A DNA stretch of 35,146 nucleotides, taken from Geobacteraceae bacterium (GTDB lineage Bacteria > Desulfobacterota > Desulfuromonadia > Geobacterales > Geobacteraceae). Of this stretch, positions 2,413-27,796 are shown piece after piece. Numbering within the stretch: the stretch's first letter is position 1; every line of letters starts with the position of its first letter. Under the pieces are notes generated by a model that worked only from the letters and a program-made list of their open reading frames with translations, did no database searches and was not told the origin of the DNA. A program made the position numbers and the translations under genes. The stretch covers positions 1 to 35,146 of the forward strand of contig JANXYN010000152.1 in NCBI GenBank assembly GCA_025356035.1. Reading direction: 5' to 3'.

Positions 2413-5400
2413 TAGCCCAAAACTTACCTCGGAAAATTTCCTTCATAAGTGCGTTGGTCGTGCTTGTTGTTATGGCCATGCTTCAGGAGCAGGCAGATGC
2501 AGCGACCATGAACGACTACTGCGTCAATCCACCCTTTATCGCCCAGTCTGCCCCCCCCTTGGTCATGTTTGAGGTGGGGCGGGAACACAAGCTTTACTAC
2601 CAGGCGTATAATGACGCATCTGATCTGGATAATGACGGGCAGATTGATGCGGCGTACAAGCATTCCATCGACTATTATGGGTATTTTGACCCCTACAAGT
2701 GCTATACCCATAGTGGAGGTTCAGGTGCAACTGACAAGTTCACGCCGGTTTCCACCACCGCCGACAAATTCTGCTCGGCCGGGCAGTGGAGCGGCAATGT
2801 GCTGAACTGGTTGACCATGGCCCGGATTGATGCCCTACGCAAAGTTCTTTATGGTGGCTACCGGAGTGCTGACAGCGGTACTTCCACCGTGCTGCAGAGG
2901 GTGTACGTCCCCCAGGACGCCCATAGCTGGGGCAAGGAGTTTACCGGACGGCTCTGTTACAACGGCAGCGCCGCCGATCCCAATAAATACAACTATACCT
3001 GTACCATCGACTCCGACTGTGGTGCCGGGTACAGCTGCCTCGACAAATCCCAGAACCTGATCGGCATCGCAGCGGCGCTGGCACCGAACACCTGCTCGAC
3101 CAGTACGGCGGTCAGCTGGGGTACCACCGGCAAGATTCTCGTGGTTGATTATAACCATGACAGCTCGTTGGCAGCCGATACCCTCTGCGGCGCAGATCAC
3201 ACCAATCTGATTCTTTCCTATAATCCTTTGGCAGCCTCACCTCTGGGGTATACCACCCATTATTACGTCAATGATTTCAACGATACGACGCTGGCGCCCG
3301 GGAATCACCACAACGATTATTATAACATCTTCGCAGTTACCGAATTCAACGTGTTGAGCAGCAAAAAAGGCGACTGGCAGTTTGCCATCGGTGGGGATGA
3401 CGGCGTTGAGGTGGAGGTGGATGGGATCGTGGTTGCCTCGGGTTATGGCTGCCATTCAAGTACCGGCGGCCAGGACAACTTTGGCACCGTTACCCTGAAC
3501 ACCGCCGGCTACCATCGGCTGATCGTTAGGCATACCCAGAAAACAGGGCAGGATGGGGTGAAGGTCTGGTACAAAAAACCGGGCGACGCATCCTGGACCA
3601 TTTTTGGCAGTACCCTGACGCTGCGGGCGCCTACGATTACTTCATCAGGGCCCGATAACCGCTGTACCATCAAAACCGACGACTTCATCCAGACCGGCAC
3701 GCCAACCATCGGCACTACGGCCAGGCGGCATCTCTTCTGTAGTACGACACTCTCCGCTGATGGTACCCCCATCCTCCGCAAGCTGGAGAACATGACCAAC
3801 CGGGTCTGGGAGTGGTCCGCCAAGGAACGGCCGGTCTGTGACAATTCCCTTGGCACGCCGACCGATTACACGGTGGCGGTTGAGGTGTGCAAAGCCGGCC
3901 TCCTGGAGACAAATTGCAAGAATTATGGGGGGAATTACAAACCGGTCGGGCTGTTGCAAAAATATGGCGAAGGGGACGGTTCAAAGGTCTGCTCGAAGAC
4001 CTTCTCCGCGGCATGCACAACCGACAACGATTGCGGGGGGGGCGAAGGGCTTTGCGTCAATCGCGTCCCCATGTTCTTCGGCCTGATGACCGACACCTAC
4101 ACCAAGAACCTTAGTGGCGGGGTGCTGCGCAAAAACCCCGGGAGCATCCTGGATGAAACGAATGCCAACAATGGCCAGTTCCAGACCTCGGAGAATGTCC
4201 AGGGGAACATCATCCACACCCTGGATCGGCTGAAGGTCATCGGCTACCGGTATTCCGATTATTCGTATCAGGACTCGGTCGGCGGCTCGTGTGGCTGGAT
4301 CGAAACCCGGCCGCTGCAGGAGGGGGAATGCCGGATGTGGGGGAACCCCATTGCGGAGATGATGTACGAGAGTATGCGCTATTTTGCCGGCAAAGGGGCT
4401 CCCACTGCCGAATTTGATTATTCGACCAGCGCCGATTCAAGCGTGAACCTGTCCAAACCGAGCTGGGGTTACCCCAAGGGGAGTAATACCTATCAACCCT
4501 ATGACATATTCCCGTCCTGCTCCAAGCCATTTATCCTGATTCTGAGCGATGTCAACACGAGTTACGATTCCGACCAGATCCCCGGCAGCTCTTTTAAAAA
4601 AACCGACGGCACCTATTTCGCAGAAGATGCGCTTGCCCCGCACCTGGGACTTGGGGATGTCACCAGTGGCGTTTCGCTCCTTAACCAGCTCGCTGAAACC
4701 ATTGGTGCCAGTGAAGGAATTATCGGCAGCAACTGGTTCATCGGCGAGAATGGCACGATCAAAGACTTCATCTGCTCCTCCAAAAACGTAACAAAATTCA
4801 GTCTGCTGCGCGGCATGTGCCCGGAGGAGCCGACCAAGCAGGGGAGTTTTTACGCGGCTGCGGTCGCCTATTATGGACATTCGTACATGCAGGCAAAAAC
4901 AGGGAAACCTAACGTTACCACCTTTGCCGTGGCGCTCTCCTCACCGTCTGCCAATCTGAAGTTCAGGGCCGGGAGCCACATGGTGACAATCGTGCCAGTC
5001 GGCAAATCGGTGAGTGGCGCTGCCGGTGTATACGGGCAATGCGCCGCCAAGTGCACGCTTAGCTCGGACAGTGACGGGCTGCACATCAGTAGCTGCGCTG
5101 CCGATGCCTTCTGTCCTTCCAACCAGATCGTCAACATGTTTGTACAGCAGTTCGAGTATAACGCCGCCGGTGAAGCCATCTATGCAAAATTCAAGATCAA
5201 CTACGAGGATTCGGAGCAAGGGGCGGACCATGATATGGACGCCATCGTTTCCTATGAGATCTGCACCCAGGCAGCCAAGGATAATAGCCTGGGGAGCTGC
5301 GGTATCGACTTGGTCAACAGTATCCAGGTGAAAATGACCTCGGATTACGGCGCCGGCGGAATTGACCAGGTACTCGGTTTCGTCATTTCCGGGACCACCT

Positions 5401-11466: not shown

Positions 11467-12516
11467 ATGTTCATGTCAAAGAAAGAAATAATCGGTATCG
11501 ACATCGGTTCCAGCTCGGTCAAACTCGTTCAGCTCAAGGAGCAGCGGGGGACCTATGTGCTGAAGAATGTGGGAATGCTTCCCCTTCCTGCAGAGGCCAT
11601 TGTTGACAATGCCCTGATGGACACCTCTTCGATTGTGGAAACTATCAGGTCTCTTTCGAAAAGCCTGGGGGTGAAAATCAAGGATGTTGCCTGCTCCATC
11701 TCCGGGAATGCGGTGATCATCCGTAAAATAAGCCTTCCCGCCATGAGCAGTGAGGAGCTCGAAGACCAGATCCAGTGGGAAGCGGAACAATATATTCCAT
11801 TCGATATAAATGACGTGTTTCTTGATTTTCAGATCCTCGGCCCTGACCAAATGGATCCATCCAAAATGCAGGTGCTACTGGTGGCGAGCAAAAAGGACAT
11901 CATCAACGACTATGTGGCAGTCTTTAGCGAGGCTGGGCAGCGGCTGTTGGTCGTGGATGTAGACTCTTTTGCTGTGCAAACCGCCTTCGAGCAGAATTAC
12001 AGCCCCGGCGAAGACGAGATGGTGGCTTTGATCAATATCGGCGCCAGCATTATGAACCTGAATATCGTCAGGGGAGGAGTGTCGCTCTTTACCAGGGACG
12101 TGCAGATGGGAGGCAATGCCTACACAGAGGAGTTGCAGAAGCAGGTAGGCATCAGCGGCGAAGAGGCGGAGCGGCTGAAAATCAGCGGAGAATACGCGGC
12201 GCAGTCCAAACTGCGCGATGTGATTGCCCGGATCAACGACACGCTGGCCCAGGAGATGAGACGGTCCCTCGATTTTTATATCTCGTCCGCTGGAGATGAA
12301 AGGGTGAGTAAGGTTTACCTGAGCGGTGGTTGTGCCAAGATCGGTCAGCTGGTCGAGACGGTAAATCAGAAGCTCGGGGTACCGGTTGAAATACTGAACC
12401 CATTTCGCAAACTCAAGGTCAACGAAAGGGCCTTTGACCCTGAATACCTTCAGCAGATCGGGCCGCTGATGACAGTCGCGGTAGGACTTGCTACCAGGAG
12501 GGTGGGGGATAAATGA
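11467..12516 (+). CDS. pilM: Type IV pilus assembly ATPase-like protein PilM
   Basis: A 349-residue cytoplasmic actin-like protein. The phosphate-1 motif GIDIGSSSVKLVQL is at residues 10-23, phosphate-2 INIGASIMNLNIVRGG near 189, and the adenosine motif VYLSGGCAKI near 283, all in the expected order and spacing. PilM binds the cytoplasmic tail of PilN and links the PilNOP inner-membrane complex to the assembly motors. AGGA eight bases before ATG 11467 supports that start over an in-frame ATG at 11473. It overlaps pilN by ATGA, so the stoichiometry is probably coupled. Length fits the family. Confidence 0.95.
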   Translation: MFMSKKEIIGIDIGSSSVKLVQLKEQRGTYVLKNVGMLPLPAEAIVDNALMDTSSIVETIRSLSKSLGVKIKDVACSISGNAVIIRKISLPAMSSEELEDQIQWEAEQYIPFDINDVFLDFQILGPDQMDPSKMQVLLVASKKDIINDYVAVFSEAGQRLLVVDVDSFAVQTAFEQNYSPGEDEMVALINIGASIMNLNIVRGGVSLFTRDVQMGGNAYTEELQKQVGISGEEAERLKISGEYAAQSKLRDVIARINDTLAQEMRRSLDFYISSAGDERVSKVYLSGGCAKIGQLVETVNQKLGVPVEILNPFRKLKVNERAFDPEYLQQIGPLMTVAVGLATRRVGDK

Positions 12517-13091
12517 TAAAAATAAATTTATTACCCATCCGGGCTGTCAAAAAAAAGGAAACTGCCAAGCAGGAGATCTCCATCTTTTTCCTATGCTTGG
12601 TGGGTACTCTGCTGATCTGTGGCGCCTTGTTTTATCAGCTATATATGAAGATCAATGCTACCAGGAACGATATTGTCAAGTCGGAGGCTGACCTTGCCCA
12701 GTTGAAAACAACCATCGGTGAGATTGAAAAAATAAAGAGCCTGGAAGCGGATGTGCAGAAAAAACTTGATATTCTGAATCAGCTGCGCAAGGGAAAGACC
12801 GGCCCGGTGCACAGGCTTTCTACTCTGGGTGATATAACCCCGGAAAAACTTTGGTTGACCAAATATGAAGAGAAAGCTGACAGTGTGAGCATTAGTGGTG
12901 TCGCACTTTCAGAGGACCTGATTGAGACGTTCCTGAACAATATGAAAGGGTCAGAAGATTTCACTGAAGGGGAGTTGTTGGTTAGCGAGCAGTTAATTCA
13001 AGCAGGGTTAAAGGCAAAGCGGTTCGATATTAACAGTAAGCTGAAAACGGCCAGAAAGATGGAACCGCCGCAATTGCCAGTCAAGAAATAA
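12513..13091 (+). CDS. pilN: Type IV pilus inner-membrane protein PilN
   Basis: A 192-residue bitopic membrane protein. The N-terminal INLLPIR motif (residues 4-10) is the known docking peptide for PilM. One transmembrane helix (about residues 21-43) follows, then a periplasmic coiled coil (about 45-95) and a small alpha/beta domain. It forms dimers with PilO in the alignment complex. Its start overlaps the pilM stop. All family features are present and length is normal. Confidence 0.94.
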   Translation: MIKINLLPIRAVKKKETAKQEISIFFLCLVGTLLICGALFYQLYMKINATRNDIVKSEADLAQLKTTIGEIEKIKSLEADVQKKLDILNQLRKGKTGPVHRLSTLGDITPEKLWLTKYEEKADSVSISGVALSEDLIETFLNNMKGSEDFTEGELLVSEQLIQAGLKAKRFDINSKLKTARKMEPPQLPVKK

Positions 13092-13128
13092 ACCGATACT
13101 GTACAGGACCCCCTTTAAGGATTAACTT

Positions 13129-13713
13129 ATGGATCCGATAGTTGACAAGATTTTAAAACGCCCCAAACAGCAAAAAATATTTATTCTCATGGGTGTGATG
13201 GCCGTGATTGTTGCGGGCTTTTATTTTGGCCTGTATGCGCGTTTTCAGAATGAGTATTCTTCATTACGGGACCAGCTTACAAAGCTGCAGGATGAGATCC
13301 AGAAAGACCGCGATATTGCCAACAATCTCCCTCGACTCAGGGAGGAGCAAGAAAGGCTCAATCAGGAGCTGAAAAAAGCCCTCACCGAGCTTCCGGACCA
13401 GAAGGAGATTCCATCACTGCTGACCAGTATCAGCAGGGCAGGTAAAGGTGCCGGTCTCGATTTTATCACGTTCCGGCCGAAACCGGAGACCCCTAAGGAC
13501 TTCTACTACGAAATTCCGGTGGACATTGTTGTTTATGGAGATTATTACAGCCTGGCAAATTTCTTCGTCGCCGTGGGGAACCTGCCGCGAATCATCAATA
13601 TCACCAATCTGTCTTTTTCCGGCATAAAGAGCGACCCAGGTGGCCGGACCACGTTTTCGGTCAGCTGTCTGGCAACAACGTTCCGATTCATGGAAAAGAA
13701 AGAGAAAAAATGA
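13129..13713 (+). CDS. pilO: Type IV pilus inner-membrane protein PilO
   Basis: A 194-residue bitopic protein with a short cytoplasmic N-terminus, one transmembrane helix at about residues 18-38 (IFILMGVMAVIVAGFYFGLY), a periplasmic coiled coil (about 40-85) and a ferredoxin-like C-terminal domain. The stretch PSLLTSISRAGKGAGLDF is typical of PilO. It pairs with PilN and binds PilP. It lies 37 bases after pilN and overlaps pilP by four bases. Confidence 0.94.
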   Translation: MDPIVDKILKRPKQQKIFILMGVMAVIVAGFYFGLYARFQNEYSSLRDQLTKLQDEIQKDRDIANNLPRLREEQERLNQELKKALTELPDQKEIPSLLTSISRAGKGAGLDFITFRPKPETPKDFYYEIPVDIVVYGDYYSLANFFVAVGNLPRIINITNLSFSGIKSDPGGRTTFSVSCLATTFRFMEKKEKK

Positions 13714-14279
13714 TAACAAGAACACCATTATACAGAATATTGCCAGTTGTTTTGTTTGTGGCACTGTTTTTTGCAGTGCTTGGCTGCAAGATCGAAGGTG
13801 TGCCCAGTCAACAACCTAGCCAAAAGGCTGTAGAAGCACCCAAGAATGCCCTGCAACTGCAGAAGCAAGTGAGTTCTGCTCGGACTCCAGTGGCTCCGAC
13901 ACCCATTAATTTTGCGAAAAAGAAAGACCCGTTCCGGCCTTTTGTTTTACCGACAACTGTGGTGTCGAAGGCCGGAACAACAAGCACAATCAGGTCCAAA
14001 AAACTCAGCAATTTACCAATTCATAGCTTTGATGTTAGTCAGTTCAAGGTGAATGGCATTATCACCGGGCTTCGCGAGAATCGAGCGTTGATTGTTGACC
14101 CTAATGGCAAGGCGTATGTGATAAAAGTGGGGATGACTGTCGGTGTGAATGAAGGTCGAGTCACCAGGATCAACCCGGCGTCCATCGAGATAACCGAGCA
14201 GTTTAGCGATGACCGCGGCAACAAGAGGAAACAGGTGGTCAAGCTCTATCTCCCCAAGATACAGGAGAAAATTAAATGA
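13710..14279 (+). CDS. pilP: Type IV pilus lipoprotein PilP
   Basis: A 189-residue lipoprotein. The signal sequence ends in a lipobox, AVLGC, with the acylated Cys at residue 26. A disordered linker follows, then a C-terminal beta domain starting near KKDPFRPF, the PilP hallmark, and including the stretch GIITGLREN-like turn near residues 115-125. PilP connects the PilNO complex in the inner membrane to the N-domains of the PilQ secretin. Both ends overlap neighbours (ATGA), so pilO-pilP-pilQ are translationally coupled. Confidence 0.93.
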   Translation: MITRTPLYRILPVVLFVALFFAVLGCKIEGVPSQQPSQKAVEAPKNALQLQKQVSSARTPVAPTPINFAKKKDPFRPFVLPTTVVSKAGTTSTIRSKKLSNLPIHSFDVSQFKVNGIITGLRENRALIVDPNGKAYVIKVGMTVGVNEGRVTRINPASIEITEQFSDDRGNKRKQVVKLYLPKIQEKIK

Positions 14280-17035
14280 GATCTCTTTTGAAGATAGGGA
14301 ACCTTGTGCAGTATGTGACCCTGTTGTTTCTCCTGATGGCCTTCGGCTGCGCCCAGAATGCAGCCACGGTCCAGCCGGAGGGGTTGGGTGAGCAGGCGGG
14401 TGTGGTTACCATCAAGTCGATTCAGGTAACTGGCGAGGGGGATAATGCCCAGCTCGAAGTGGTCGCCAACAAACCACTCACATACACCTCCTACCAGATG
14501 ACCGACCCGTCGCGGGCGGTTATCGATTTTTCCCAGACTGAACCGGGGCGGGTTCCTGCCAACATCGAGGTAAATGCCGGCAATATCAAAGAGGTCAGGG
14601 TGCAGAAACAGGAGCTTGCCGGGGGGGTCATCACCCGGGTCGAGCTGTTTCTGAACAAGGATACCGAATTCTTTGTCACAACCGACAGTAATGACAAGGC
14701 AAAGCTGATATTGTCGTTTAAAAAGCCGTCCGAGGCGAAGCCGGAAGAGGCCAAGGTAGAGGCCCCGCCAGCGGAACAACCGAAGCCGGTAGAGGTTGTC
14801 GCCGCTCCGGATGCAGAGCCCAAGCCGGTCGAGGTCACGCCGGCGCCGGTGGAAGAGCCCAAGCCTGCACCTGCAGTACCGGCGGAAAAGATTGTCAGCG
14901 CGGTGAATGTGGCTGATGGTGGGGTTGTGATCGTCACCGGCGGCGCAGTGGAGGAATATAAGGCCTTTACCCTGAAGCGGCCGAGCCGTCTGGTCATTGA
15001 TATCATGGGGGCTAAGAACGGCCTCAAGACGAAGATAATCCCAGTGAAGAGCTATGGCGTGGTAACCGCCAGGATCGGCACCTATCCAGACCGGGTCAGG
15101 ATCGTGTTTGACTCCGGCAAAAAGGCCTTCCCTGCCTATCAGGTGGAAAAATCCGATAACGGTCTGCAGCTTCTGCTGGCTGGGGTAAAAAAAGGGAGCA
15201 AGCCGGCAGCGGTTAAGAGCGCCAGCAAAAAAGGGGGCAGGGGCGCCATCGAGTCGGTCGATTTCATTATGCAAGACGGCGCGGCGCGGATTGCGCTCAA
15301 AACCTCCGGTAACTGCCAAGTGGGGGAGCCGGTAAAGCTTGCCACCGGCTTTGTTCTGACCGCCAGGAATTGCCAGCTGCCGAAAAAACTGGAGCGGATG
15401 CTCGACACCAGTGCCTTTGCCAGCGCGGTGCAGCGCGTTTCTCCCTACCAGGTAAAGGTGAAAGGGCGCCCCGATGTGAAGGTCCTGGTGACGCTCCGTG
15501 CCGAAACCACCTACAGCATGAAGCGTGAAGGGGACATGGTCTTTGTCGATGTCGTAACCCCTCCAGGCTTGGCGGCTCCTGCAGCGTCTATTGTACAGTC
15601 GGTTACTGCGCCTGGAGCGGTCACAGACAAGGCTGGAGCAGCCGTTGCCCCTGAGGCTGCACCGACTAAGCCAGAAGAAAAAGTAGCGCCTGCTGCGGCG
15701 GCAGCGGTTGCAGAGAAAGCTGCCGTGGAAAAACCTGTGGTCGAGGCCGTTCCTCTTGAGGAGCCGGTCAGGGATGAGGCCTTTGCCGGTATGGGGAAGA
15801 GTGCCCAAACCAGCGTTCAGCCAGGGGCCAAGAAACGCTATACTGGCCGGCGGGTGACCCTGGAGTTCGTCGATGCCGAAGTCAGGAAGATTTTCCAGCT
15901 CCTGGCCGAGGTGAGTAACCTCAACTTCCTGATTGGCGACGATGTGACCGGGACCATCACCATCAAGCTGGTCAATGTTCCCTGGGACCAGGCTCTGGAT
16001 GTAATCCTGGAATCCAAGTCGCTCGGGATGCTGCGCGACGGCAATATCGTGCAGATCCGGCCGAAGGCCAAGATGCAGAACCTCGCCGACGAAGAGCAGG
16101 CAATGAAGAAGGCCCAGGAGCGGGCTATGGAGCTCAAGACAGAGGTGTTCGAGGTGAACTTTGCCACCCTCGGTGACGTGGTCGCCCAGTTCAACGCCTT
16201 GAAGAGCGATAGGGGAAGTATTACCCCGGATGCCCGTACCAACCGGTTGATTGTCAAGGATATTGCCCCGGCTCTTGCAGATATGCAGGCGCTCCTGAAA
16301 ACCATCGATACCCCTGAAAAGCAGGTGCTGATCGAGGCGCGGATTGTGGAGGCTTCGTCCAACTTTACCCGTGATCTTGGTGTGCAGTGGGGTATTCACT
16401 ATAAGGACGCCTCTGCTTCCGTTGCCCAGATCAATCAGCTCGATACCGGCTTTGGTGGGGTAGTGACACCGCCGCCGTCTTCCGGCTTCCCGTCTTCCAC
16501 CAGTGCCGGCGGGGCCATGGGGGTATCGTTTGGCAAGCTGACCAACAATGTTCAGATTGATATGCGGCTTTCTGCTGCTGTTACCAGCGGCGATGTGAAG
16601 ATTATTTCCACGCCGAAGGTTGTTACCCTCAACAACAAGGCGGCGAAGATCTCCCAGGGTCAGTCGATTCCCTACCAGACCACCTCGGCCGAGGGGACCA
16701 AGACCGAGTTTGTCGAAGCGGCCCTCACTCTTGAGGTGACGCCACATATCACCTCGGACGGCAGCGTTTCCATGAAGATCAAGGCGTCCAACAACTCGCC
16801 AGGCTCCGGCACGCCGCCGCCCATCAACAAGAAGGAGGCGACCACCGAGCTGCTGGTGCGAAACGGTGAAACCACCGTTATTGGCGGCATCTATGTGGAC
16901 ACTGATACGGAGTCCGAGCAGGGGGTGCCGTTCCTCAAGGATATCCCGCTCCTCGGCTGGATGTTCAAGTCCAACACCAAGAGCAAGAACAAGACCGAGC
17001 TGTTGATCTTCATCACACCGAAGGTGGTGGGTTAA
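14276..17035 (+). CDS. pilQ: Type IV pilus secretin PilQ
   Basis: A 919-residue outer-membrane secretin through which the pilus passes. A lipobox-like site, MAFGC, puts Cys at residue 25. Three AMIN-like peptidoglycan-binding domains follow (about 46-145, 205-300 and 325-425), then an Ala/Pro/Glu-rich linker. Next are a secretin/TonB short N domain (about 527-595), an N1-type domain (about 622-690), and the secretin beta-barrel domain to the end. Secretin landmarks are KQVLIEARIVEA near 682, IISTPKVVTLNN near 774, and the final ELLIFITPKVV. The extra AMIN domain and linkers make it longer than the usual 700-750 residues. Being a lipoprotein might ease outer-membrane targeting without a separate pilotin, which is inference. 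Confidence 0.95.
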   Translation: MRSLLKIGNLVQYVTLLFLLMAFGCAQNAATVQPEGLGEQAGVVTIKSIQVTGEGDNAQLEVVANKPLTYTSYQMTDPSRAVIDFSQTEPGRVPANIEVNAGNIKEVRVQKQELAGGVITRVELFLNKDTEFFVTTDSNDKAKLILSFKKPSEAKPEEAKVEAPPAEQPKPVEVVAAPDAEPKPVEVTPAPVEEPKPAPAVPAEKIVSAVNVADGGVVIVTGGAVEEYKAFTLKRPSRLVIDIMGAKNGLKTKIIPVKSYGVVTARIGTYPDRVRIVFDSGKKAFPAYQVEKSDNGLQLLLAGVKKGSKPAAVKSASKKGGRGAIESVDFIMQDGAARIALKTSGNCQVGEPVKLATGFVLTARNCQLPKKLERMLDTSAFASAVQRVSPYQVKVKGRPDVKVLVTLRAETTYSMKREGDMVFVDVVTPPGLAAPAASIVQSVTAPGAVTDKAGAAVAPEAAPTKPEEKVAPAAAAAVAEKAAVEKPVVEAVPLEEPVRDEAFAGMGKSAQTSVQPGAKKRYTGRRVTLEFVDAEVRKIFQLLAEVSNLNFLIGDDVTGTITIKLVNVPWDQALDVILESKSLGMLRDGNIVQIRPKAKMQNLADEEQAMKKAQERAMELKTEVFEVNFATLGDVVAQFNALKSDRGSITPDARTNRLIVKDIAPALADMQALLKTIDTPEKQVLIEARIVEASSNFTRDLGVQWGIHYKDASASVAQINQLDTGFGGVVTPPPSSGFPSSTSAGGAMGVSFGKLTNNVQIDMRLSAAVTSGDVKIISTPKVVTLNNKAAKISQGQSIPYQTTSAEGTKTEFVEAALTLEVTPHITSDGSVSMKIKASNNSPGSGTPPPINKKEATTELLVRNGETTVIGGIYVDTDTESEQGVPFLKDIPLLGWMFKSNTKSKNKTELLIFITPKVVG

Positions 17036-18888: not shown

Positions 18889-19116
18889 ATGCATGGTATG
18901 AAAGAAATAATACAGGAAGCAGAGTCCCTCCCTGTGGAAGAGAGGGCTATTGTAATCGATTCTCTGCTACGAACACTCAATCCTCCTGATGTGGGAATAG
19001 ATAAAGAATGGTTGAAGGTTGCCAAGCGCAGAGTTGTCGAGTTGCGGTCTGGCAGCGTCAACCCTGTTCCGGGAAACGAGGTCTTTTCGAAAATCCGGGA
19101 GCGCTTTGGAAGATGA
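18889..19116 (+). CDS. Antitoxin of addiction module (unstable antitoxin family)
   Basis: A 75-residue protein of the addiction-module type seen beside ParE/RelE toxins. The helical core IQEAESLPVEERAIVIDSLL, with the E-LP-EER pattern, is characteristic. A C-terminal tail rich in charged residues would wrap the toxin. A GGGAGGGG site precedes ATG 18889. Its stop overlaps the toxin start (ATGA at 19113-19116), the usual arrangement that keeps antitoxin in excess. Confidence 0.85.
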   Translation: MHGMKEIIQEAESLPVEERAIVIDSLLRTLNPPDVGIDKEWLKVAKRRVVELRSGSVNPVPGNEVFSKIRERFGR

Positions 19117-19403
19117 AATTCTCATTTCATCCCGAAGCGGAAGCGGAGTTCAACGAGGCTATTGATTATTACGAAGAGTGTGAGCCGGGGCTCGGGTACG
19201 ACTTTTCTATCGAGGTGTTTGCCAGTATTCAGAACATTGTCAACTACCCGACTGCCTGGCCGGTCATGGAAGAATACGTCCGGCGTTGTCTTGTCTATCG
19301 TTTCCCCTACGGCGTTGTCTACAGTATAGAACAGAGCGGGATTTTCATCCTAGCAATCATGCATCTGCGCCGCCATCCTGATTATTGGAAAAACAGACAT
19401 TGA
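19113..19403 (+). CDS. RelE/ParE-family toxin
   Basis: A 96-residue protein. HPEAEAEFNEAIDYYEE at the N-terminus and HLRRHPDYWKNR at the C-terminus are hallmarks of the ParE-like branch of RelE/ParE toxins. The family includes both gyrase poisons and mRNA interferases; the sequence alone does not decide which. The frame runs upstream to 19008, but ATG 19113 gives the normal family length and the ATGA overlap with the antitoxin. The frame is intact. The pair sits between pilus-related genes and aroC, a likely later insertion. Confidence 0.87.
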   Translation: MKFSFHPEAEAEFNEAIDYYEECEPGLGYDFSIEVFASIQNIVNYPTAWPVMEEYVRRCLVYRFPYGVVYSIEQSGIFILAIMHLRRHPDYWKNRH

Positions 19404-19503: not shown

Positions 19504-20685
19504 ATGTTACGTTACCTTACCGCCGGCGAATCCCATGGTCCGCAGCTGACCGCCATCATCGAAGGCGTTCCTTCCGGGCTTAAAATTGCCGAAGAGGAGA
19601 TCAATGCCGATCTGGCCCGTCGCCAGGGTGGCTACGGCCGCGGCGGGCGGATGCAGATCGAGAAGGACGTGGTGGAGATCCTCTCCGGGGTCCGCTGGGG
19701 GGAGACGATCGGCTCGCCGGTGACGCTCTGTGTCAAGAACCGTGACTGGGTCAATTGGAAGGAAAAGATGTCCCCCTACGAGGTTCACCGGGACGACAAA
19801 ATCCGGGTGACCCGTTCCCGCCCCGGCCATGCTGACCTGCCGGGGGCGATGAAGTACAATCAGCGCGACGTGCGCAATATTCTGGAGCGCGCCAGCGCCC
19901 GAGAGACGGCGGTGCGTGTCGCGGTGGGTGCGGTGGCCCGGGCGTTTCTGGTTGAATTTGGCGTCACCGTCTGCGGCTTCGTGGTTGAATTGGGGGGGAT
20001 CAAGGCCCAGCGGCCGAAGCTCCCCCTTGATAAACTGCGAGGATTGGTGGCAAAGTCAGAGCTCTTCACCTTCGACCAGGACGCCGAAGAGCGGATGAAG
20101 GCGCTCATTGATCAGAGCCGGGAGGCGGGTGACACCGTGGGTGGCATCATAGAGGTGGCAGTGGCTGGTGCGCCGCCGGGGCTTGGGAGTCACGTGCAGT
20201 GGGACCGCAAACTTGATGCCCGACTGGCCATGGCGCTGATGAGTGTCCAGGCCATCAAGGGGGTGGAGATCGGCCTCGGGTTCGAAATGGCCAGGCGCCC
20301 CGGTTCCCAGGTCCATGACGAGATCTATTACGATTCGACCAGGATTATCGAAGGGGATTCCACCGGGTTTTACCGCAAAACCAACAACGCCGGCGGCATC
20401 GAAGGAGGGATCACCAATGGCGAGGAGCTGTTGGTGCGCGCCGCCATGAAGCCGATCCCGACCCTCTACAAGCCGCTCAAATCGGTGGATATGCAGAGCA
20501 AGGAGCAATTCGAGGCGACGGTGGAGCGGTCCGATATCTGCGCGGTGGCGGCGGCCTCGGTGGTGGCCGAAGCGGTAGTGGCCATCGAAATTGCCAACGC
20601 CTTTCTGGAGAAGTTAGGCGGCGACTCCATGGTGGAGATCCGGCGGAATTACGACGGTTATATCGACTATCTGCGGAGTTTCTAA
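19504..20685 (+). CDS. aroC: Chorismate synthase
   Basis: A 393-residue cytoplasmic enzyme converting 5-enolpyruvylshikimate 3-phosphate to chorismate with reduced FMN. The N-terminal signature LTAGESHGP is present, with the catalytic His, followed by [12 protein letters not shown] and the later conserved stretches [13 protein letters not shown] and [13 protein letters not shown]. The length fits the long bacterial form. GGAG precedes the ATG. It is followed by aroK and aroB, and aroQ lies nearby, so most of the shikimate path is clustered here next to pilQ, as I recall for other Geobacter genomes. A product of this path, chorismate, is also the substrate of MqnA encoded at 28324-29148. Confidence 0.97.
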
Positions 20686-20738
20686 ATACACATCTACCAC
20701 GGAGACACGGAGTCACGGAGAAAACAAAAAAACTTTAC

Positions 20739-20838
20739 TTAACAAGGATATTCAGGATGGACAGGATTAAAGCCTTTTTGATTTGAACCGGAAATAGATT
20801 TTTGTTTTTATCCTGTATATCCTGTATATCCTTGTTAA
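20739..20838. repeat. Inverted repeat between aroC and aroK
   Basis: Two 29-base arms (20739-20767 and 20810-20838) are reverse complements with three mismatches and are separated by 42 bases. Each arm contains an internal tandem of the type CAGGATATA. The flanks include ACGGAGACACGGAGTCACGGAG (20700-20721 region). Both motifs resemble intergenic repeats common in Geobacter and related genomes (recall). The copy number cannot be checked here. Confidence 0.65.
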
Positions 20839-20906
20839 AATGCTTTTGCTTGTTTTTCTCGTTATTCTTCGCGTCTGTGTTTAGCAGGTTTACAGGTTTC
20901 CGCTTG

Positions 20907-21416
20907 ATGAAACACAAAAACATCATCCTGACCGGCTTCATGGGGACCGGCAAGAGCAGTGTCGGCAAGCTGCTGGCCGAGCGGCTCGGCTACCAGTACT
21001 GCGACCTTGATGCGCTTATCGTCGCTGCAGCGGGGTTCTCCATCAACGAGATTTTTGCTCGCCACGGCGAGGCCCACTTCCGGCGGATCGAGGCGGAGAT
21101 GGTGCGGTCCATTGCCAACCGGTCCGGGCTGGTGGTCGCCACCGGCGGCGGCGCCGTACTCGACCCGGAAAACCGGCGGCAGCTGCGGGCCGTCGGTTTT
21201 ATTGTCAACCTGACTGCGCCTGCAGTGGAGATTCTTAAGCGCCTGCAGGAGGACAACGATCGACCGCTACTGAAGGAAGGGAAAACCCTGGAACAGATCG
21301 GCGCCATGCTGCAGGAGCGAGAGCCGTTCTACGCAGACGCCGACATTCGAATTGACACCACTGGGAAAAGTGTGGAAAATGTGGTGGCGGAGATCATGCG
21401 GGCGCTCGCGGCTTGA
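20907..21416 (+). CDS. aroK: Shikimate kinase
   Basis: A 169-residue P-loop kinase that phosphorylates shikimate at the 3-hydroxyl. The Walker A motif GFMGTGKSS begins at residue 10, the shikimate-binding DxD is in CDLDALI (residues 31-37), and the glycine-rich VATGGGAVL follows. A lid with DRPLL lies near residue 115. I chose ATG 20907; the open frame extends upstream to 20802, but that part is repeat DNA and lacks kinase sequence. The ribosome site is weak. The gene precedes aroB, with 30 bases between them. Confidence 0.95.
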   Translation: MKHKNIILTGFMGTGKSSVGKLLAERLGYQYCDLDALIVAAAGFSINEIFARHGEAHFRRIEAEMVRSIANRSGLVVATGGGAVLDPENRRQLRAVGFIVNLTAPAVEILKRLQEDNDRPLLKEGKTLEQIGAMLQEREPFYADADIRIDTTGKSVENVVAEIMRALAA

Positions 21417-21446
21417 ATATATAGTTATTTAAAGGATCTATCAATC

Positions 21447-22529
21447 TTGGAAACAGTCACCGTCGGCCTGGCCGAGCGAAGCTATCAGATAAGTATCGGG
21501 CAAGGGATCATGGGCACGCTCGGTCACGCCTGCCGGGAGTTGCACCTTGGCAGCAGGGTGGTGGTGGTGACCAACCCGACGGTGGGGGGGCTCTATTTCG
21601 AGGTGGTGCGCCGTTCGCTGGCGGACGCCGGCTTCAACGTCCAACTAATCGAGATTCCTGACGGCGAGGAGTACAAGAGTCTTGAGACTCTCAAGGGGAT
21701 CTACGATCTCCTCATCGCTGGCCGACTTGACCGTGGCTCGTTTCTCGTCGCCCTTGGTGGTGGGGTAGTGGGGGATATCGCCGGCTTTGCCGCCGCAACC
21801 TACCTGCGCGGCATACCCTTTGTCCAGGTGCCGACCACGCTCCTGGCCCAGGTGGACAGCAGTGTCGGAGGTAAGACCGGCATCAACCACCCGCTTGGCA
21901 AGAACCTGATTGGCGCATTTTATCAGCCGCGGCTGGTGATGATCGATCTGGATACCCTGGATACCCTGCCTGAACGCGAGTTTTTAAGCGGCTTGGCAGA
22001 GGTGGTGAAATATGGTATTGTCCTGAATAAGGATTTTTTTAACTTCCTGGCCGCCCATGCCGATGAGATCCGTACTAGGGAAAAGCATTGTCTGGCCAAG
22101 GTGGTGAAAAGCTGCTGCTCTATCAAGGCGGATGTGGTGGCGCGGGATGAGCGGGAGACGGAACTGCGGGCGGTGCTTAATTATGGCCATACCATCGGCC
22201 ATGCGGTGGAAACCCTTACCGACTATAAGCAGTTCAGCCACGGCGAGGCGGTGGCGATCGGAATGGTGCAGGCGGCAAAGATCTCCGAGGTGATGGGATA
22301 TGCCGGCAGCACCGATACCGAGCGGATTATGGCGCTTCTGGAGACCCTGCATCTGCCGGTGGAGTTGCCCCAGTTCAGCCTGGAAGCATATCTTGACGCG
22401 CTGGCGCGGGACAAGAAAGTCAAAGAGGGTGGGTTGAGCTTTGTCTTCAATAAGAGGATCGGCGATTTTACCATCGGCAAGGTGAAGGATATAGCCGCCT
22501 TGCTGGCTACCTGTGGCATCCGGGGCTGA
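21447..22529 (+). CDS. aroB: 3-dehydroquinate synthase
   Basis: A 360-residue NAD- and metal-dependent enzyme that cyclises DAHP to 3-dehydroquinate, the second shikimate step. NAD-binding is seen in PDGEEYKSLETL and the glycine-rich ALGGGVVGDIAGFAAATYLRG. The catalytic part includes PTTLLAQVDSSVGGKTGIN, and the zinc ligands are the Glu of GLAEVVKYG and the His of LNYGHTIGHAVE and SHGEAVAIGM. The start is TTG 21447, 10 bases after AAGGA; no ATG or GTG fits the expected N-terminus, so translation may be modest. It ends two bases before the TPR gene. Confidence 0.96.
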   Translation: METVTVGLAERSYQISIGQGIMGTLGHACRELHLGSRVVVVTNPTVGGLYFEVVRRSLADAGFNVQLIEIPDGEEYKSLETLKGIYDLLIAGRLDRGSFLVALGGGVVGDIAGFAAATYLRGIPFVQVPTTLLAQVDSSVGGKTGINHPLGKNLIGAFYQPRLVMIDLDTLDTLPEREFLSGLAEVVKYGIVLNKDFFNFLAAHADEIRTREKHCLAKVVKSCCSIKADVVARDERETELRAVLNYGHTIGHAVETLTDYKQFSHGEAVAIGMVQAAKISEVMGYAGSTDTERIMALLETLHLPVELPQFSLEAYLDALARDKKVKEGGLSFVFNKRIGDFTIGKVKDIAALLATCGIRG

Positions 22530-22531
22530 TT

Positions 22532-23908
22532 ATGGATCTGAGTACATCGACATTCAGCGAGATCAAAAAGTTCGAGGATCAGCTGGCCAAAGACCCCAAG
22601 TCGTACTGTTTCGCGCCGCTGGCGGACCTTTATCGGAAGCTGGGACTCCTGGATGAGGCGATCTCGGTGGCTCAACGCGGCGTCGAATTGCACCCATCCT
22701 ATGTGGGCGGGCTGGTATCGCTGGCCAAGGCCTATTTCGAAAAGGGGCAGAAACAGGAGAGCCGGGCGGTCCTGGAGCGGCTGGTGACCATTACCCCGGA
22801 AAACCTGATGGCCCAAAAACTGCTTGCGCAAACATGTCTGGATACCGGTGATATTGCCGCGGCAGAAAAGGCTTTTCAAGTGGTGCTGGCGCTTAACCCC
22901 GCCGACAGTGAGAGTCGGATCGCGCTGGACTCGCTTGCCAAGTTTACCGCACCGGCAAAGGCTGCGCCGGTTGCGCCTTCTGCAGCGGAAGCTGTTGTTG
23001 CGGTTGAGGCAGCTCCTGCTGCTTCCTTGCCTGCCCAGCCAAAGCCTATGGCTATTGCTCCTGAACCGGACGGCAGCGGTGCCAAAATGGTCGATCTGCT
23101 GGAGGGAGGCGAGTTCGATATCACCTTCGATGATGCCGACATAGTCAGTGAAGTCGCTTTTGCAGCGCCAGAGCTGACGGAGGCTGCTTCGTTCAGCTGG
23201 ACCAGCGAGGTGGTGGAGGATCAGCTGGATATCCCCGGGGCTTCCGGTCTTGAACTGGATCAGAGCGCAGAGAGCCCGGAACCTGCCGAGATTGACGGGG
23301 AAACGTTTGATTTTTCCGCACCTCCCACGCTAGTGCCTCCTCCTGCTGAATCGGATTTCCCCGTTTTTGGTGAGCTGGCGGAAGCGCTGGGGGGCGAGCA
23401 TGACCTTGACTTTTTCGGTCTTGGCGCGGCAGAGGCCGAGCCTGGACTGCAGACGACCACGTTCTTCGGCACAGGGGATGAGGTGGGGAGCGATGAAGAG
23501 CAACCTGCGTTTGTCAAATCGGAACCGGTGGGGCAAAAAGACCCCCTGACCACGGTGACCCTGGCAGAACTCTACGTTTCCCAGGGGTTTTTGACGCGTG
23601 CCCTCAACATCTATCGGGAACTGGTGGATGAAAACCCCCAGAACCAGGAACTGAAAAATCGGCTGAGGGAGCTGACGCAGCAGGTCGATGCCGCCGAGGA
23701 CAGCAGCAAGCTGGCGAACCAGGCGACTGCCGCCGAGACACAGACAGTAACAGAGATCGAGAGTAATGAGACGGTGGTGGTCACTTCCCCGATGGTTGCC
23801 CCGGTGCAGATGATGACAACCACCGCCCGCCCCGATGCTGCAGCTGTTGAGATCGCATCCCTGCAAAACTGGCTGGATAATATCAGGAGGAATCGGCAAT
23901 GTCACTGA
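22532..23908 (+). CDS. Tetratricopeptide repeat protein coupled to a roadblock protein
   Basis: A 458-residue cytoplasmic protein with no signal peptide. TPR repeats cover about residues 1-130 (YRKLGLLDEAISVAQRGVEL, then a second and third unit). A long acidic, Ala/Pro-rich linker (about 135-335) follows, and one more TPR lies at about 342-385 (LAELYVSQGFLTRALNIY). The C-terminus ends in LQNWLDNIRRNRQ, a short conserved-looking helix that may bind the downstream roadblock protein. It starts two bases after aroB and overlaps the roadblock gene by 10 bases, so the two products are probably made together and interact. Function is unknown; a scaffold role is inferred. Confidence 0.8.
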   Translation: MDLSTSTFSEIKKFEDQLAKDPKSYCFAPLADLYRKLGLLDEAISVAQRGVELHPSYVGGLVSLAKAYFEKGQKQESRAVLERLVTITPENLMAQKLLAQTCLDTGDIAAAEKAFQVVLALNPADSESRIALDSLAKFTAPAKAAPVAPSAAEAVVAVEAAPAASLPAQPKPMAIAPEPDGSGAKMVDLLEGGEFDITFDDADIVSEVAFAAPELTEAASFSWTSEVVEDQLDIPGASGLELDQSAESPEPAEIDGETFDFSAPPTLVPPPAESDFPVFGELAEALGGEHDLDFFGLGAAEAEPGLQTTTFFGTGDEVGSDEEQPAFVKSEPVGQKDPLTTVTLAELYVSQGFLTRALNIYRELVDENPQNQELKNRLRELTQQVDAAEDSSKLANQATAAETQTVTEIESNETVVVTSPMVAPVQMMTTTARPDAAAVEIASLQNWLDNIRRNRQCH

Positions 23909-24261
23909 GAGACCAGCTGAAACAGATGGTTGAGAGTGTCGGTGGCGGCATGGGCGCCGTGATTATGGGTTATGATGGGATAGCCATCGACGAATATATA
24001 AAGCCGGAAGCAACCATCGACATTCAGATGATGGCTATTGAGTACGCGGCCATGCTGAAAGAGATCAAGAAGACCATCGAGGTTCTCAACTCGGGGGCAG
24101 TCGAGGAGATATCGATCAATACCGACCGCGCCCAGGTTCTCATCAGGATCATCAATGATGATTTTTTTGTGGTCATGGCACTGCAGAGTGAAGGTAACTA
24201 TGGGAAGGGGCGTTATCTGCTGAGGGTGGAGGCGCCTGAACTGCATGCAGGTCTGCAGTAG
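23899..24261 (+). CDS. Roadblock/LC7-domain protein
   Basis: A 120-residue single-domain protein of the roadblock/LC7 family (SVGGGMGAVIMGYDGIAIDE at the start, then a long helix AIEYAAMLKEIKKTIEVL and a beta hairpin). Bacterial members such as MglB of Myxococcus act as GTPase-activating partners of Ras-like MglA in polarity and pilus-based motility. No MglA-like gene is in this window. A strong GGAGG lies nine bases before the ATG, within the end of the TPR gene. Its link to pilus function is an inference from family and distant neighbourhood only. Confidence 0.85.
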   Translation: MSLRDQLKQMVESVGGGMGAVIMGYDGIAIDEYIKPEATIDIQMMAIEYAAMLKEIKKTIEVLNSGAVEEISINTDRAQVLIRIINDDFFVVMALQSEGNYGKGRYLLRVEAPELHAGLQ

Positions 24262-24285: not shown

Positions 24286-24729
24286 ATGAAGATACTGGTG
24301 TTGCACGGTCCGAATTTGAACCTTCTGGGAACCCGTGAACCGGGGATTTATGGCAATATAACCCTGGCTGACCTTAATGCTGACATAAGCGCGCTAGCCA
24401 AGGAGCTTGGCATCGAGGTCGCCATCTTCCAGTCAAACTCGGAGGGGGAACTTGTCGACAAGATCCAGGGTGCCCTTACGACAGTTGACGGCATTCTCAT
24501 CAATCCCGCCGCTTACACCCACACCAGCGTCGCTTTGCGCGACGCAATTGCCGCCGTGGCCCTGCCGACAGTGGAAGTCCACCTCTCCAATATTCACAGC
24601 CGCGAAGAATTCCGCAGCACCAGCTTCATCGCGCCGGTTGCGTTGGGGCAAATCTCCGGCCTTGGCCCCGACAGCTATCTGCTCGGACTCAGGGCTCTTT
24701 TTAGTCATACTAAAAAAAATCGGCAGTAA
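24286..24729 (+). CDS. aroQ: Type II 3-dehydroquinate dehydratase
   Basis: A 147-residue enzyme of the flavodoxin-like type II class that dehydrates 3-dehydroquinate to 3-dehydroshikimate. [18 protein letters not shown] contains the conserved Asn, Arg and the catalytic Tyr22. The segment [16 protein letters not shown] and the [12 protein letters not shown] motif with the catalytic His follow. The family forms dodecamers of this subunit size. A ribosome site GGGAG lies before the ATG. It continues the aroC-aroK-aroB group after the TPR-roadblock pair. Confidence 0.96.
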
Positions 24730-24757
24730 TAAAAAAGATTGTAATAAGGGCCTGATT

Positions 24758-25831
24758 ATGTTAAAAAACAGGGTCTCGACCGCCAGAGAGTATCTGGCGA
24801 GATTTGACGCCGATTTTATCCTGTTTCTTCATATGTGCAATATCCGGTATCTAACCGGTTTTACTGGGAGTGATGCGGCCCTTCTGCTTGGCAGGGAGCG
24901 TGGCTGGTTCCTGACCGATTCCCGTTACACGACCCAGGCGGCGGCAGAAGTTGTTGGGGTTGGGGTTGAGATTGTCGAGTACCGCAGTAAGCTGGAAGGG
25001 ATAACCTCCCTGCTAAAAGAGTGCGGAGCCCGGCGGGTCGGATTCGAAGCGGAACAGATAACGGTTGCCTTTTACCGGGCCCTCAGCGAGGGGGTGCCGG
25101 AGGTGAGTCTCCTCCCCGTCGGTGCCGAACTGGAAAATCTCCGCCTGCTCAAGGATGCCCACGAGTTGGAGCAGCTGGCCAAGACGGCAGGGATCGCGTC
25201 AGCAGCGCTTTCTGGCATATTGGGGCAGATCAGGCCCGGCATGACCGAGCGTGAGTTGGCTCTGGATCTGGAATTTGCCATGCGCCGGGGCGGTGCAGAC
25301 GGCAAGGCCTTTGATTTTATCGTTGCCTCGGGTGAGCGGGGGGCGCTTCCGCACGGCAAGGCCAGCGACAAGTTGATTACCGTGGGGGAGCTGGTTACCA
25401 TCGATTTTGGCGCAGTCAGGGATGGCTACCATTCCGATGAGACGGTTACCATCGCAGTGGGAGAGCCGGACAGCAGGCAGCGGGAAATTTACCGGATTGT
25501 CAAAGAGGCCCACGACCTGGCCCTGGATGCGGTAAGGCCTGGCAAAACCCTAAAAGAGCTGGACGGGCTGGCGCGGAACTTTATTGACTCCCATGGTTAT
25601 GGCAGCTATTTTGGCCACGGCCTCGGCCATGGCGTCGGCCTGGAAATTCACGAAAAACCGGTTGTCTCCCCCCGTAGCGACGGGTTGGTCACCGAGGGGA
25701 TGGTCTTCACCATCGAGCCTGGTATCTACATCCCAGGCTGGGGTGGGGTTCGCATCGAGGATACGGTTTATGTAACCGGCGCTGGCTGCCAACTTCTGAC
25801 AAAAGTACCAAAGGGATTGTTGGTGATCTGA
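24758..25831 (+). CDS. M24B aminopeptidase P / Xaa-Pro peptidase family protein
   Basis: A 357-residue metallopeptidase with a creatinase-like N-terminal domain (about 1-125) and a pita-bread catalytic domain. The metal ligands are visible: Asp in TIDFGAVRDGYHSDET (two Asp), His in FGHGLGHGVGLE, Glu in FTIEPGIYIPGWGGVRIED and the final Glu of that stretch. It should cleave Xaa-Pro bonds at the N-terminus of peptides using two Mn or similar ions. ATG 24758 follows AAGGG; the open frame continues upstream through aroQ in another frame, which is not coding. This gene commonly precedes accB (elongation factor P is absent here). Confidence 0.92.
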   Translation: MLKNRVSTAREYLARFDADFILFLHMCNIRYLTGFTGSDAALLLGRERGWFLTDSRYTTQAAAEVVGVGVEIVEYRSKLEGITSLLKECGARRVGFEAEQITVAFYRALSEGVPEVSLLPVGAELENLRLLKDAHELEQLAKTAGIASAALSGILGQIRPGMTERELALDLEFAMRRGGADGKAFDFIVASGERGALPHGKASDKLITVGELVTIDFGAVRDGYHSDETVTIAVGEPDSRQREIYRIVKEAHDLALDAVRPGKTLKELDGLARNFIDSHGYGSYFGHGLGHGVGLEIHEKPVVSPRSDGLVTEGMVFTIEPGIYIPGWGGVRIEDTVYVTGAGCQLLTKVPKGLLVI

Positions 25832-25896: not shown

Positions 25897-26373
25897 ATGG
25901 ATATAAAAGATCTTAAATCGTTAATAAAGATGGTCACGGAAACTGATATTTCCGAATTTGAGTTGGAAAACAGTGAGGAAAAGATCAGGATCAAGCGCGG
26001 TGGTGCTCCAGAGGTTGTCCATTATTCTGCTCCGCAACAGGTATATGCCATGCCCCAGGGTGCTCCCCAGTTTGCCGCTCCTGCAATGCAGGCCGCACCG
26101 GGCGCCGCCGAAGCCCCGGCTGTCGAAGAAAAAGGGAAGGCGATTACTTCACCGATTGTTGGCACTTTCTATCACGCCCCGGCCCCTGATGCTCCTCCCT
26201 ACGTGACAGTCGGGCAGGTGGTGGAAAAAGGTCAGGTCCTCTGCATCGTCGAGGCGATGAAATTGATGAACGAGATCGAAGCGGAATTCCGCTGCAAAAT
26301 TCTCAAGCTTTGCAAAGAAAATGCACATCCGGTCGAATACGGCGACCCCCTCTTCATCGTGGAGCCGCTGTAA
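25897..26373 (+). CDS. accB: Biotin carboxyl carrier protein of acetyl-CoA carboxylase
   Basis: A 158-residue protein. The N-terminal part (MDIKDLKSLIKMVTETDISE) is the usual AccB oligomerisation region, then an Ala/Pro-rich linker and a biotinyl domain. The biotin attachment motif VEAMKLMNE places the modified Lys at residue 122. AccB carries carboxyl-biotin between AccC and the carboxyltransferase in fatty-acid synthesis. A strong GGAGGAGAG precedes the ATG. It forms the usual accB-accC pair with a 82-base gap that holds a repeat. Confidence 0.96.
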   Translation: MDIKDLKSLIKMVTETDISEFELENSEEKIRIKRGGAPEVVHYSAPQQVYAMPQGAPQFAAPAMQAAPGAAEAPAVEEKGKAITSPIVGTFYHAPAPDAPPYVTVGQVVEKGQVLCIVEAMKLMNEIEAEFRCKILKLCKENAHPVEYGDPLFIVEPL

Positions 26374-26435
26374 CGAGAGTTTAAAGTTTCGCGTTTGAAG
26401 TTAACTCGAAACCTGAAACTTGAAACCTGAAACTA
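26374..26435. repeat. Degenerate inverted and direct repeats between accB and accC
   Basis: GAAACCTGAAACTTGAAACCTGAAACT contains a short direct repeat of GAAACCTGAAACT. The preceding stretch AGTTTAAAGTTTCGCGTTTGAAGTT is its approximate reverse complement. A long imperfect hairpin could form inside the accB-accC message. Similar AAACTTGAAACC strings are common intergenic repeats in related genomes (recall). Confidence 0.5.
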
Positions 26436-26455
26436 ACTATCGGAGATATTTACAG

Positions 26456-27796
26456 ATGTTCCATAAGGTACTTATAGCTAACCGGGGGGAGATCGCCCTC
26501 CGTATCATCAGGGCCTGCAAGGAAATGGGGATCAAGACGGTTGCGGTGTATTCCACGGCCGATAGTGAATCGCTCCATGTGAGACTTGCCGATGAGAGCG
26601 TCTGTATCGGCCCTCCGCCGAGCCTGCAAAGCTACCTGAATATCAATGCCATCATCAGTGCTGCCGAGTTGACCGATGCCGAGGCCATTCATCCTGGCTA
26701 CGGTTTCCTCTCCGAAAACGCCGCCTTTGCCGAAATCTGCGAAAACTGTGGCATAACCTTCATTGGCCCCACTTCCGAGAGCATGCGGATCATGGGGGAT
26801 AAGATCAGTGCCCGGCAGGCAGTCATCAAGGTAGACGTACCGATCCTTCCCGGTACCAAGGAGGGTGTGCATGACGTCGCCGAGGCGATCAAGGTCGCCA
26901 AAAGCATCGGCTTTCCGGTAATCATCAAAGCCACTGCTGGTGGCGGCGGCCGCGGGATGAAAATTGTCCATTCGCCGGCAACCCTCCCCAACGCCTTTGC
27001 CACGGCCAGGGCAGAGGCCCAGGCGGGTTTCGGCAATCCCGAGGTCTATATCGAGAAATACTGTGAGCAGCCGCGCCACGTGGAGATCCAGATCCTCGCC
27101 GACAAGCACGGTAACGTGATCCATCTCGGCGAGCGCGACTGTTCCATCCAGCGTCGCCACCAGAAGATCATCGAAGAGGCCCCTTCCACCGTTACTACCC
27201 CCAAGCTGCGCGAAGCGATGGGTGAGGCGGCGGTCCGGGCCGCCAAGGCCGTCAATTACAACAGTGTCGGCACCATGGAATTCCTGGTGGACAAGAACAA
27301 TGATTTCTTTTTCATGGAGATGAACACCCGGGTCCAGGTGGAGCACCCGGTTACCGAAATGGTCACCGGCGTCGACGTGGTCCGCGAGCAGATCCGCTCC
27401 GCTGCCGGCTTGAAGCTGCGCTACAAGCAGAGCGACATCAAGATCAAAGGGCATTCCATCGAGTGCCGCATCAATGCCGAGGACCCGGTGAAGTTCACCC
27501 CCTGTCCCGGCAAGATCACCGCCTATCACACCCCCGGCGGACTCGGGGTGCGGGTTGACTCCTTTGTCTACGATCAGTACAAAGTGGTTCCCCACTACGA
27601 TTCGCTCCTGGCAAAGCTGATCGTCCATGCCGATACCCGGGAGGATGCGATCAAACGGATGGCCAGGGCCCTTGACGAGTATATCATCGAGGGTATCAAG
27701 ACTACCATTCCGTTCCACAAGCGGATCATGGCCAACAAAGACTTTATCGAAGGGAATATCGATACCTCGTTCCTGGAAAAGATTGTGCTGGAGTAG
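26456..27796 (+). CDS. accC: Biotin carboxylase of acetyl-CoA carboxylase
   Basis: A 446-residue ATP-grasp enzyme that carboxylates biotin on AccB using bicarbonate. The N-terminal [18 protein letters not shown], the ATP loop [11 protein letters not shown], the [12 protein letters not shown] motif and [16 protein letters not shown] with the catalytic Glu and Arg are all present in order. Length is that of a stand-alone AccC. I chose ATG 26456, which has CGGAGA upstream, over the frame's first start at 26420, which lies in repeat DNA. It ends two bases before gcvH. Confidence 0.97.

Follow-up and report, generated by a model that had tools for sequence, protein, structure and literature searches.

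In a 35,146-nucleotide stretch of DNA from a Geobacteraceae bacterium (assembly GCA_025356035.1, contig JANXYN010000152.1; this whole stretch is referred to as the window, and it is contig 142 of a 3.40-Mb genome in 227 contigs), a gene for a tetratricopeptide repeat (TPR) protein overlaps a gene for a small roadblock/LC7 protein among genes of the shikimate pathway. A sequence-only reading of this DNA had suggested that the pair is an undescribed polarity or motility module and that a short helix ending the TPR protein docks the roadblock protein. What, then, is the pair likely to do, and what does the helix bind?

Gene order at the locus

The gene order in the window is pilM-pilN-pilO-pilP-pilQ-aroC-aroK-aroB-TPR gene-mglC-aroQ-pepP-accB-accC-gcvH. 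On the forward strand, the type IVa pilus assembly genes pilM, pilN, pilO, pilP and pilQ (11467..17035) are followed by aroC, aroK and aroB (19504..22529) and by the TPR gene (22532..23908), an open reading frame for a 458-aa protein identified by Pfam and as a TPR superhelix by fold search, whose ATG start lies 2 nt past the aroB stop. The mglC orthologue, a 120-aa roadblock/LC7 gene assigned by homology (23899..24261), shares 10 nt with it, and the overlap of the two genes that had been read from the sequence is thus borne out. Downstream on the same strand are aroQ (24286..24729), an ORF containing pepP (24407..25831, true start internal, at MLKNRV), which probably belongs to the Xaa-Pro aminopeptidase family, and accB and accC (25897..27796). 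The locus extends beyond the shikimate operon in which the pair had been placed, with pilMNOPQ, pepP and accBC also in it. Between pilQ and aroC there is a ParE-toxin-like ORF of 131 aa (19008-19403; PF05016, E 1.9e-6), and upstream of minor-pilin-like genes a 1926-aa ORF (2400-8180) that, to guess from its position, might encode a PilY1-like tip protein.

An MglC match (E ≤1e-3) was found in 54 of 296 genomes of the phylum, the window's genome included. From the 53 others, 40 were fetched (all except G028, G033, G039, G044, G060, G076, G077, G087, G134, G176, G195, G235 and G290); three of these were dropped, L084 as a REC-DUF4388-roadblock fusion, L087 for lying at a contig start and L088 because it is not a roadblock protein, so that 37 fetched loci, five named contigs and the window make up the 43 usable loci. 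Using the window ORF as the pepP query, mglC was flanked by aroB and pepP in 37 of the 40 fetched relatives, and pilQ lay within 28 of the 40 stretches, as counted from the listing. The aro and acc genes likewise keep the same order in relatives, with no evident tie to polarity.

The roadblock protein is an orthologue of MglC

For the 120-aa protein, Pfam and NCBIfam scans alone were uninformative (Robl_LC7 at E 0.15, under the cut-off). Its best match in the PDB is MglC of Myxococcus xanthus (7ct3, E 2.7e-28 over residues 1-118 of 120; E 2.1e-32 with a 6-sequence profile), and by this homology it is an orthologue of that polarity protein. The assignment to the roadblock proteins, weak by Pfam and certain by homology, was therefore right, as was the association of these proteins with polarity GTPases. 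Excerpts of PMC10329633 give F25/D26/I28 (FDI) as the MglB-binding surface of MglC and K104/R106/R110 (KRR) as its RomR-binding surface. Both are present in the window protein, the former as Y25, D26 and I28, with a conservative change of F to Y and G27 likewise conserved, and the latter as K103, R105 and R109. In size, the protein is without the extra termini of MglB, which is a separate protein of 163 aa. An AlphaFold2 model built from only 6 sequences had a pLDDT of 44 and was not used further.

M. xanthus MglC (MXAN_5770; 7ct3, 7cy1) thus resembles the window protein in full-length homology, size, D26/G27/I28, the K/R/R sites and the pil-acc cluster, and differs in having F25 where the window protein has Y25; the window mglC is preceded by the TPR gene and sits in an aro cluster. 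Excerpts of the literature identify MXAN_5770 as the protein of PDB 7CY1, i.e. MglC (PMC11112851), and SgmX as MXAN_5766 (PMC7519303), and locate accBC (Mxan_5767-5768) where the pil cluster ends, the pil-acc clustering having been noted in 2008 (PMC2330069). The label "undescribed" accordingly fits the TPR protein and fits neither MglC nor the clustering of pil with acc: open-licence PMC, queried for MXAN_5771 as well as the pil-aro-roadblock cluster, yielded nothing on the TPR gene.

Two further roadblock genes were observed. A second small protein of 119 aa (L010, G000:C227) is 25% identical to MglC, its gene lying between what are presumably smc-like and ftsY-like genes. The receiver-DUF4388-roadblock fusion L084 (G007) is 376 aa long and its last domain is MglC-like; open frames of similar length occur in G044 and G076.

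Other polarity components in the genome

The mglB and mglA genes are adjacent on another contig (G000:C192), and their products match the M. xanthus structures with E 7.5e-65 and 7.5e-104, respectively. A RomR-like protein of 440 aa (G000:C111; Response_reg, E 1.3e-21) has the C-terminal sequence EKIAWEVVPDLAE, including EKIAWEVVP; the RomR C-terminus (RomR-C) was recognised by its published residues (E390, K391 and W394, with invariant Trp and Pro) and not by a RomR model. A 682-aa protein (G000:C92) is SgmX-like over two stretches (E 2.9e-48 and 2.4e-26), below the curated cut-off. The search for an MglA-like partner that had been suggested thus yields MglA together with MglB and RomR-like and SgmX-like proteins, and, judged by homology, the known polarity system including MglC is encoded in this Geobacter-like genome. 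In the draw of 296, all 43 genomes with a canonical MglA (E ≤1e-95, a cut-off chosen after a gap was seen) have an MglC match; here and in the RomR-C co-occurrence counts the G027 match (L088) is taken as positive, and from the comparison of RomR position 394 onward as negative.

Architecture of the TPR protein

The 458-aa protein matches Pfam TPR_14 (E 1.1e-17), and a fold search with its TPR model returned generic TPR superhelices only. The AlphaFold2 model, built from 5 sequences, predicts an N-terminal TPR solenoid (residues 4-139; 22541..22948, +) with a pLDDT of about 90, a long disordered linker (residues 143-337; 22958..23542, +) with a pLDDT below 50 that is unalignable in relatives, and a second TPR hairpin with a long capping helix (residues 338-405; 23543..23746, +; sequence TVTLAELYVSQG...), the last also delimited by comparison of the loci. 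An amphipathic helix (residues 434-453, with Trp447; 23831..23890, +) is modelled near the C-terminus with a pLDDT of ~79 at its centre in a tail that is otherwise disordered, and in the model it stands separate from both the solenoid and the hairpin. A short helix at this end of the protein had been proposed and is indeed modelled there, although the string quoted for it is not quite the end, which reads ...SLQNWLDNIRRNRQCH. Among relatives only three conserved islands can be aligned, split by unalignable linkers.

The hairpin is the element common to the genes upstream of mglC, being present in 43 of 43 usable loci (by eye in L055 and L062, which the regular expression missed, and in L064). 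These genes fall into four classes: 27 with the Trp helix, 5 with a Phe-type helix, 10 encoding mini-TPR proteins of 67-82 aa that have no helix, and one fusion to MglC. The hairpin-to-Trp linker measures 15 to 111 aa in 24 loci. In the fusion (L064, G080) the hairpin is joined in frame to MglC, and the linker, Trp helix and stop codon are missing; a genus-mate (L063, G149) has TPR and mglC as two genes and retains the helix. Such a fusion would speak for some physical tie between hairpin and MglC, though the helix was lost.

Several known proteins share parts of this layout. SgmX (MXAN_5766; Bdellovibrio Bd2492), a TPR protein and MglA effector in pilus formation, has the same cytoplasmic TPR-linker-TPR arrangement and in M. 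xanthus belongs to the same wider pil-acc cluster. The window protein was rejected as SgmX itself, since it scores 12.6 bits against NCBIfam NF052243 (cut-off 1800) and G000:C92 is a better match, though also under the cut-off. RomR, a protein of the same module, likewise ends in an amphipathic helix that bears a conserved Trp and follows a disordered linker; its motif, however, is EKxxWExxP, whereas that of the TPR protein is LxxWLxxI. The FimV/HubP family has a pilus or polar role, and its C-terminal TPR domain (TIGR03504) is similarly a hairpin after acidic linkers; the window protein matches it with E 0.0085, its 16.1 bits falling short of the 30.65 cut-off, and, unlike FimV/HubP, showed no LysM or membrane part in the Pfam scan.

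The C-terminal helix is conserved, in part through the mglC translation signal

The helix was described by the pattern [LIVFMY]xxW[LIM]xx[ILVM] (LxxWLxxI) within the last ~32 aa. It is found in the TPR proteins of 27 of 43 usable loci and ends one of the 315 other ORFs of at least 200 aa on the same strand (3 of 317 before two TPR proteins that had slipped past the hairpin filter were removed). A profile of the helix run against the window's genome picked out this protein alone (E 2.3e-6; next 0.58). By these counts the C-terminal pattern is more than chance, and the lack of conservation that the sequence-only reading had named as grounds for abandoning its proposal is not what was observed.

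Part of the conservation has another source. The AGG AGG at 23885..23890 (+) encodes the Arg-Arg of IRRNR at the end of the helix and doubles as the ribosome-binding site for mglC, 8 nt ahead of the ATG. In 18 of the 27 Trp-helix loci the codons downstream of the Trp contain a Shine-Dalgarno-like motif for mglC; among the Arg codons in that segment 45 of 72 are AGG or AGA, compared with 109 of 382 elsewhere in the protein. Because the ribosome-binding site overlaps and AGG/AGA is preferred, the conserved RR is partly a translation signal and not an interface; neither the Trp nor the Leu and Ile beside it are explained in this way.

Distribution of the helix and of MglC

Excerpts of PMC12719032 report that the C-terminal helix of RomR binds MglC with a KD of 2.6 nM and that W394 is required. 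The helix of the TPR protein could dock the MglC dimer directly in the same way, as RomR W394 does in cleft 1, and so link the polarity GTPase system with the TPR scaffold. This RomR precedent, the adjacent and overlapping genes, a helix modelled as free and the natural fusion in G080 would all suit such docking, as would MglC position 101 (F102 in M. xanthus, next to K104), which is aromatic in 20 of 27 helix loci and in 0 of 10 mini loci; position 101, however, is one of many lineage-sorted columns, seven others sort more strongly, and this is expected from shared descent. It speaks against docking that the helix tail and MglC cleft 1 are both basic, the charge of the tail coming partly from the overlapping ribosome-binding site.

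The helix alone was searched against the same 296 genomes and 20 extra loci were opened (the best matches, weaker ones remaining); four of them (L176, L180, L182 and L183) are unrelated proteins matched by chance. The others are proteins, about 83-253 aa long, that combine a hairpin with a Trp helix; they come from 16 genomes, spread over five families, that have no detectable MglC: the MglC profile gave 0 of 16 matches at E up to 0.1, and Robl_LC7 gave none at 1e-3 in 9 of 16. As these genomes were found via the Trp helix, they are uninformative on the frequency of helix-less hairpin genes among MglC-less genomes. Conversely, MglC stands beside a helix-less mini-TPR gene in 10 of 43 loci, and in 5 more beside the different, Phe-type helix.

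RomR provides the comparison. A RomR-C-like helix occurs in 11 of the 16 MglC-less helix genomes versus 30 of 227 other MglC-negative genomes (by subtraction, G027 negative). Position 394 was read in 85 of 86 RomR-C genomes (G167 was not fetched; loci L143-L152, L195-L208, L211 and L213-L272), three having no readable alignment. It is Trp in 45 of 45 MglC-positive genomes and in 7 of 37 readable MglC-negative ones (of 40), all 7 with a second-tier MglA match; the other 30 have Arg (22), Lys (4) or Val, Ala, Met and Gln (one each). By family, 19 are MglC-positive with Trp, 4 MglC-negative with Trp and 11 MglC-negative without, family f2 being counted twice, among the 19 and among the 11, because its member G214 has no match to MglA or MglC and carries Arg. 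Fisher p-values computed for the co-occurrence counts, the MglC columns and the families take no account of shared ancestry and should not be read as probabilities. A number of the RomR-C-like loci (L195-L202, L229, L238, L253, L258, L261 and L263) encode short proteins, with frames that span about 92-219 aa and mostly leave no room for a receiver domain as well; the genomes concerned lack canonical MglA and MglC.

The Trp of a real MglC ligand thus tracks MglC, whereas that of the TPR protein does not follow the presence and absence of MglC. Docking on the roadblock protein is, on these genome comparisons, unlikely to be the purpose of the helix, and mimicry of RomR W394 in cleft 1 was dropped as an explanation after the MglC-less helix genomes and the RomR comparison; we regard direct docking as improbable overall. 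The loose C-terminal helix, although conserved, probably has some role beyond holding MglC; the TPR protein may still touch MglC through another surface or in some lineages. Replacement of RomR by the TPR helix was also rejected, since, of the 22 genomes that have both the Trp helix and MglC, 21 also have a RomR-C match.

Persistence of the helix without MglC would also follow if its role were structural, with the helix packing on its own hairpin or in the N-terminal TPR groove, or forming homo-oligomers, and having no partner. TPR hairpins are rarely stable on their own, and the family f9 proteins (83-103 aa) are just a hairpin, a short Pro-rich linker and the Trp helix. A hairpin-to-Trp linker so variable in length and the ten mini-TPR proteins with a hairpin and no helix tell against this role, which we consider unlikely.

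The TPR gene and mglC could instead be passengers with unrelated jobs in an old aro-pepP-acc operon, and the TPR protein may serve pepP, the neighbour that its gene keeps most constantly. In the MglC-less genomes the hairpin-Trp gene is followed immediately by pepP or by aroQ-pepP, and three of these loci read pilMNOPQ-TPR-pepP; this position before pepP fits the explanation, as does the conserved aro and acc order. It is hard to reconcile with a hairpin gene upstream of every usable mglC, and with the role of pilMNOPQ and MglC as pilus and polarity genes in M. xanthus, where, in excerpts of PMC2330069, PMC11112851 and PMC7519303, the cluster also holds accBC, mglC and sgmX; we hold it to be very doubtful.

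Two observations bear on the tie to pili, which is suggested by gene order. In family f9 the hairpin-Trp gene stands by pepP and no pil gene was found within about 5 kb. G214 has kept pilM-Q, and the searches used for the 296-genome draw gave no match there to MglA, MglC or the Trp helix. The latter joint loss is also what docking would predict, and it favours a tie of the helix to MglC or MglA over one to the pili, as far as gene content can show.

Discussion

With MglC, MglA, MglB, a RomR-like protein and a relative of SgmX encoded in the genome and pilus genes adjoining, the view of the pair as a polarity or motility module is supported and the polarity reading is likely; because the pair adjoins the type IV pilus assembly cluster, such a role is our best guess. 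Our preferred explanation, which we put forward tentatively and at a little below an even chance, is that the pair belongs to a pilus and polarity locus in which the TPR protein is an adaptor whose Trp helix binds a partner that predates MglC and is more widely distributed. MglC would act as in M. xanthus, as a roadblock dimer bridging the C-terminal Trp helix of RomR and MglB, and the bridge would place the MglA switch at the pole. The TPR protein would be a cytoplasmic adaptor with its parts arranged as beads on a string, namely solenoid, long disordered linker, hairpin, short linker and tethered Trp helix, and would probably bring the polarity complex and the neighbour-encoded pilus machine together. 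Building on the gene identities, synteny, conservation pattern and predicted architecture, we infer the localisation at the pole, the control of pili and the nature of any partner.

A more specific history is rather unlikely as it stands: the hairpin-Trp protein would be an ancient adaptor of pili and RomR that predates MglC, with MglC added later, the basic residue of RomR changing to Trp, and the helix serving as a second hub. If true, the Trp helix of the adaptor would mark a second interaction hub of the polarity machinery.

The RomR comparison offers a way to distinguish, by genomes alone, a Trp that really binds MglC from one that only resembles it, and the pattern at position 394 independently supports the 2025 biochemical mapping of W394 and the published MglC-RomR interface. 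More broadly, the Myxococcus polarity hub (MglA, MglB, MglC, RomR and SgmX) is found with pilus genes beside it in Geobacter-like bacteria, where polarity control has been little studied, and the TPR protein adds to it one conserved, uncharacterised component.
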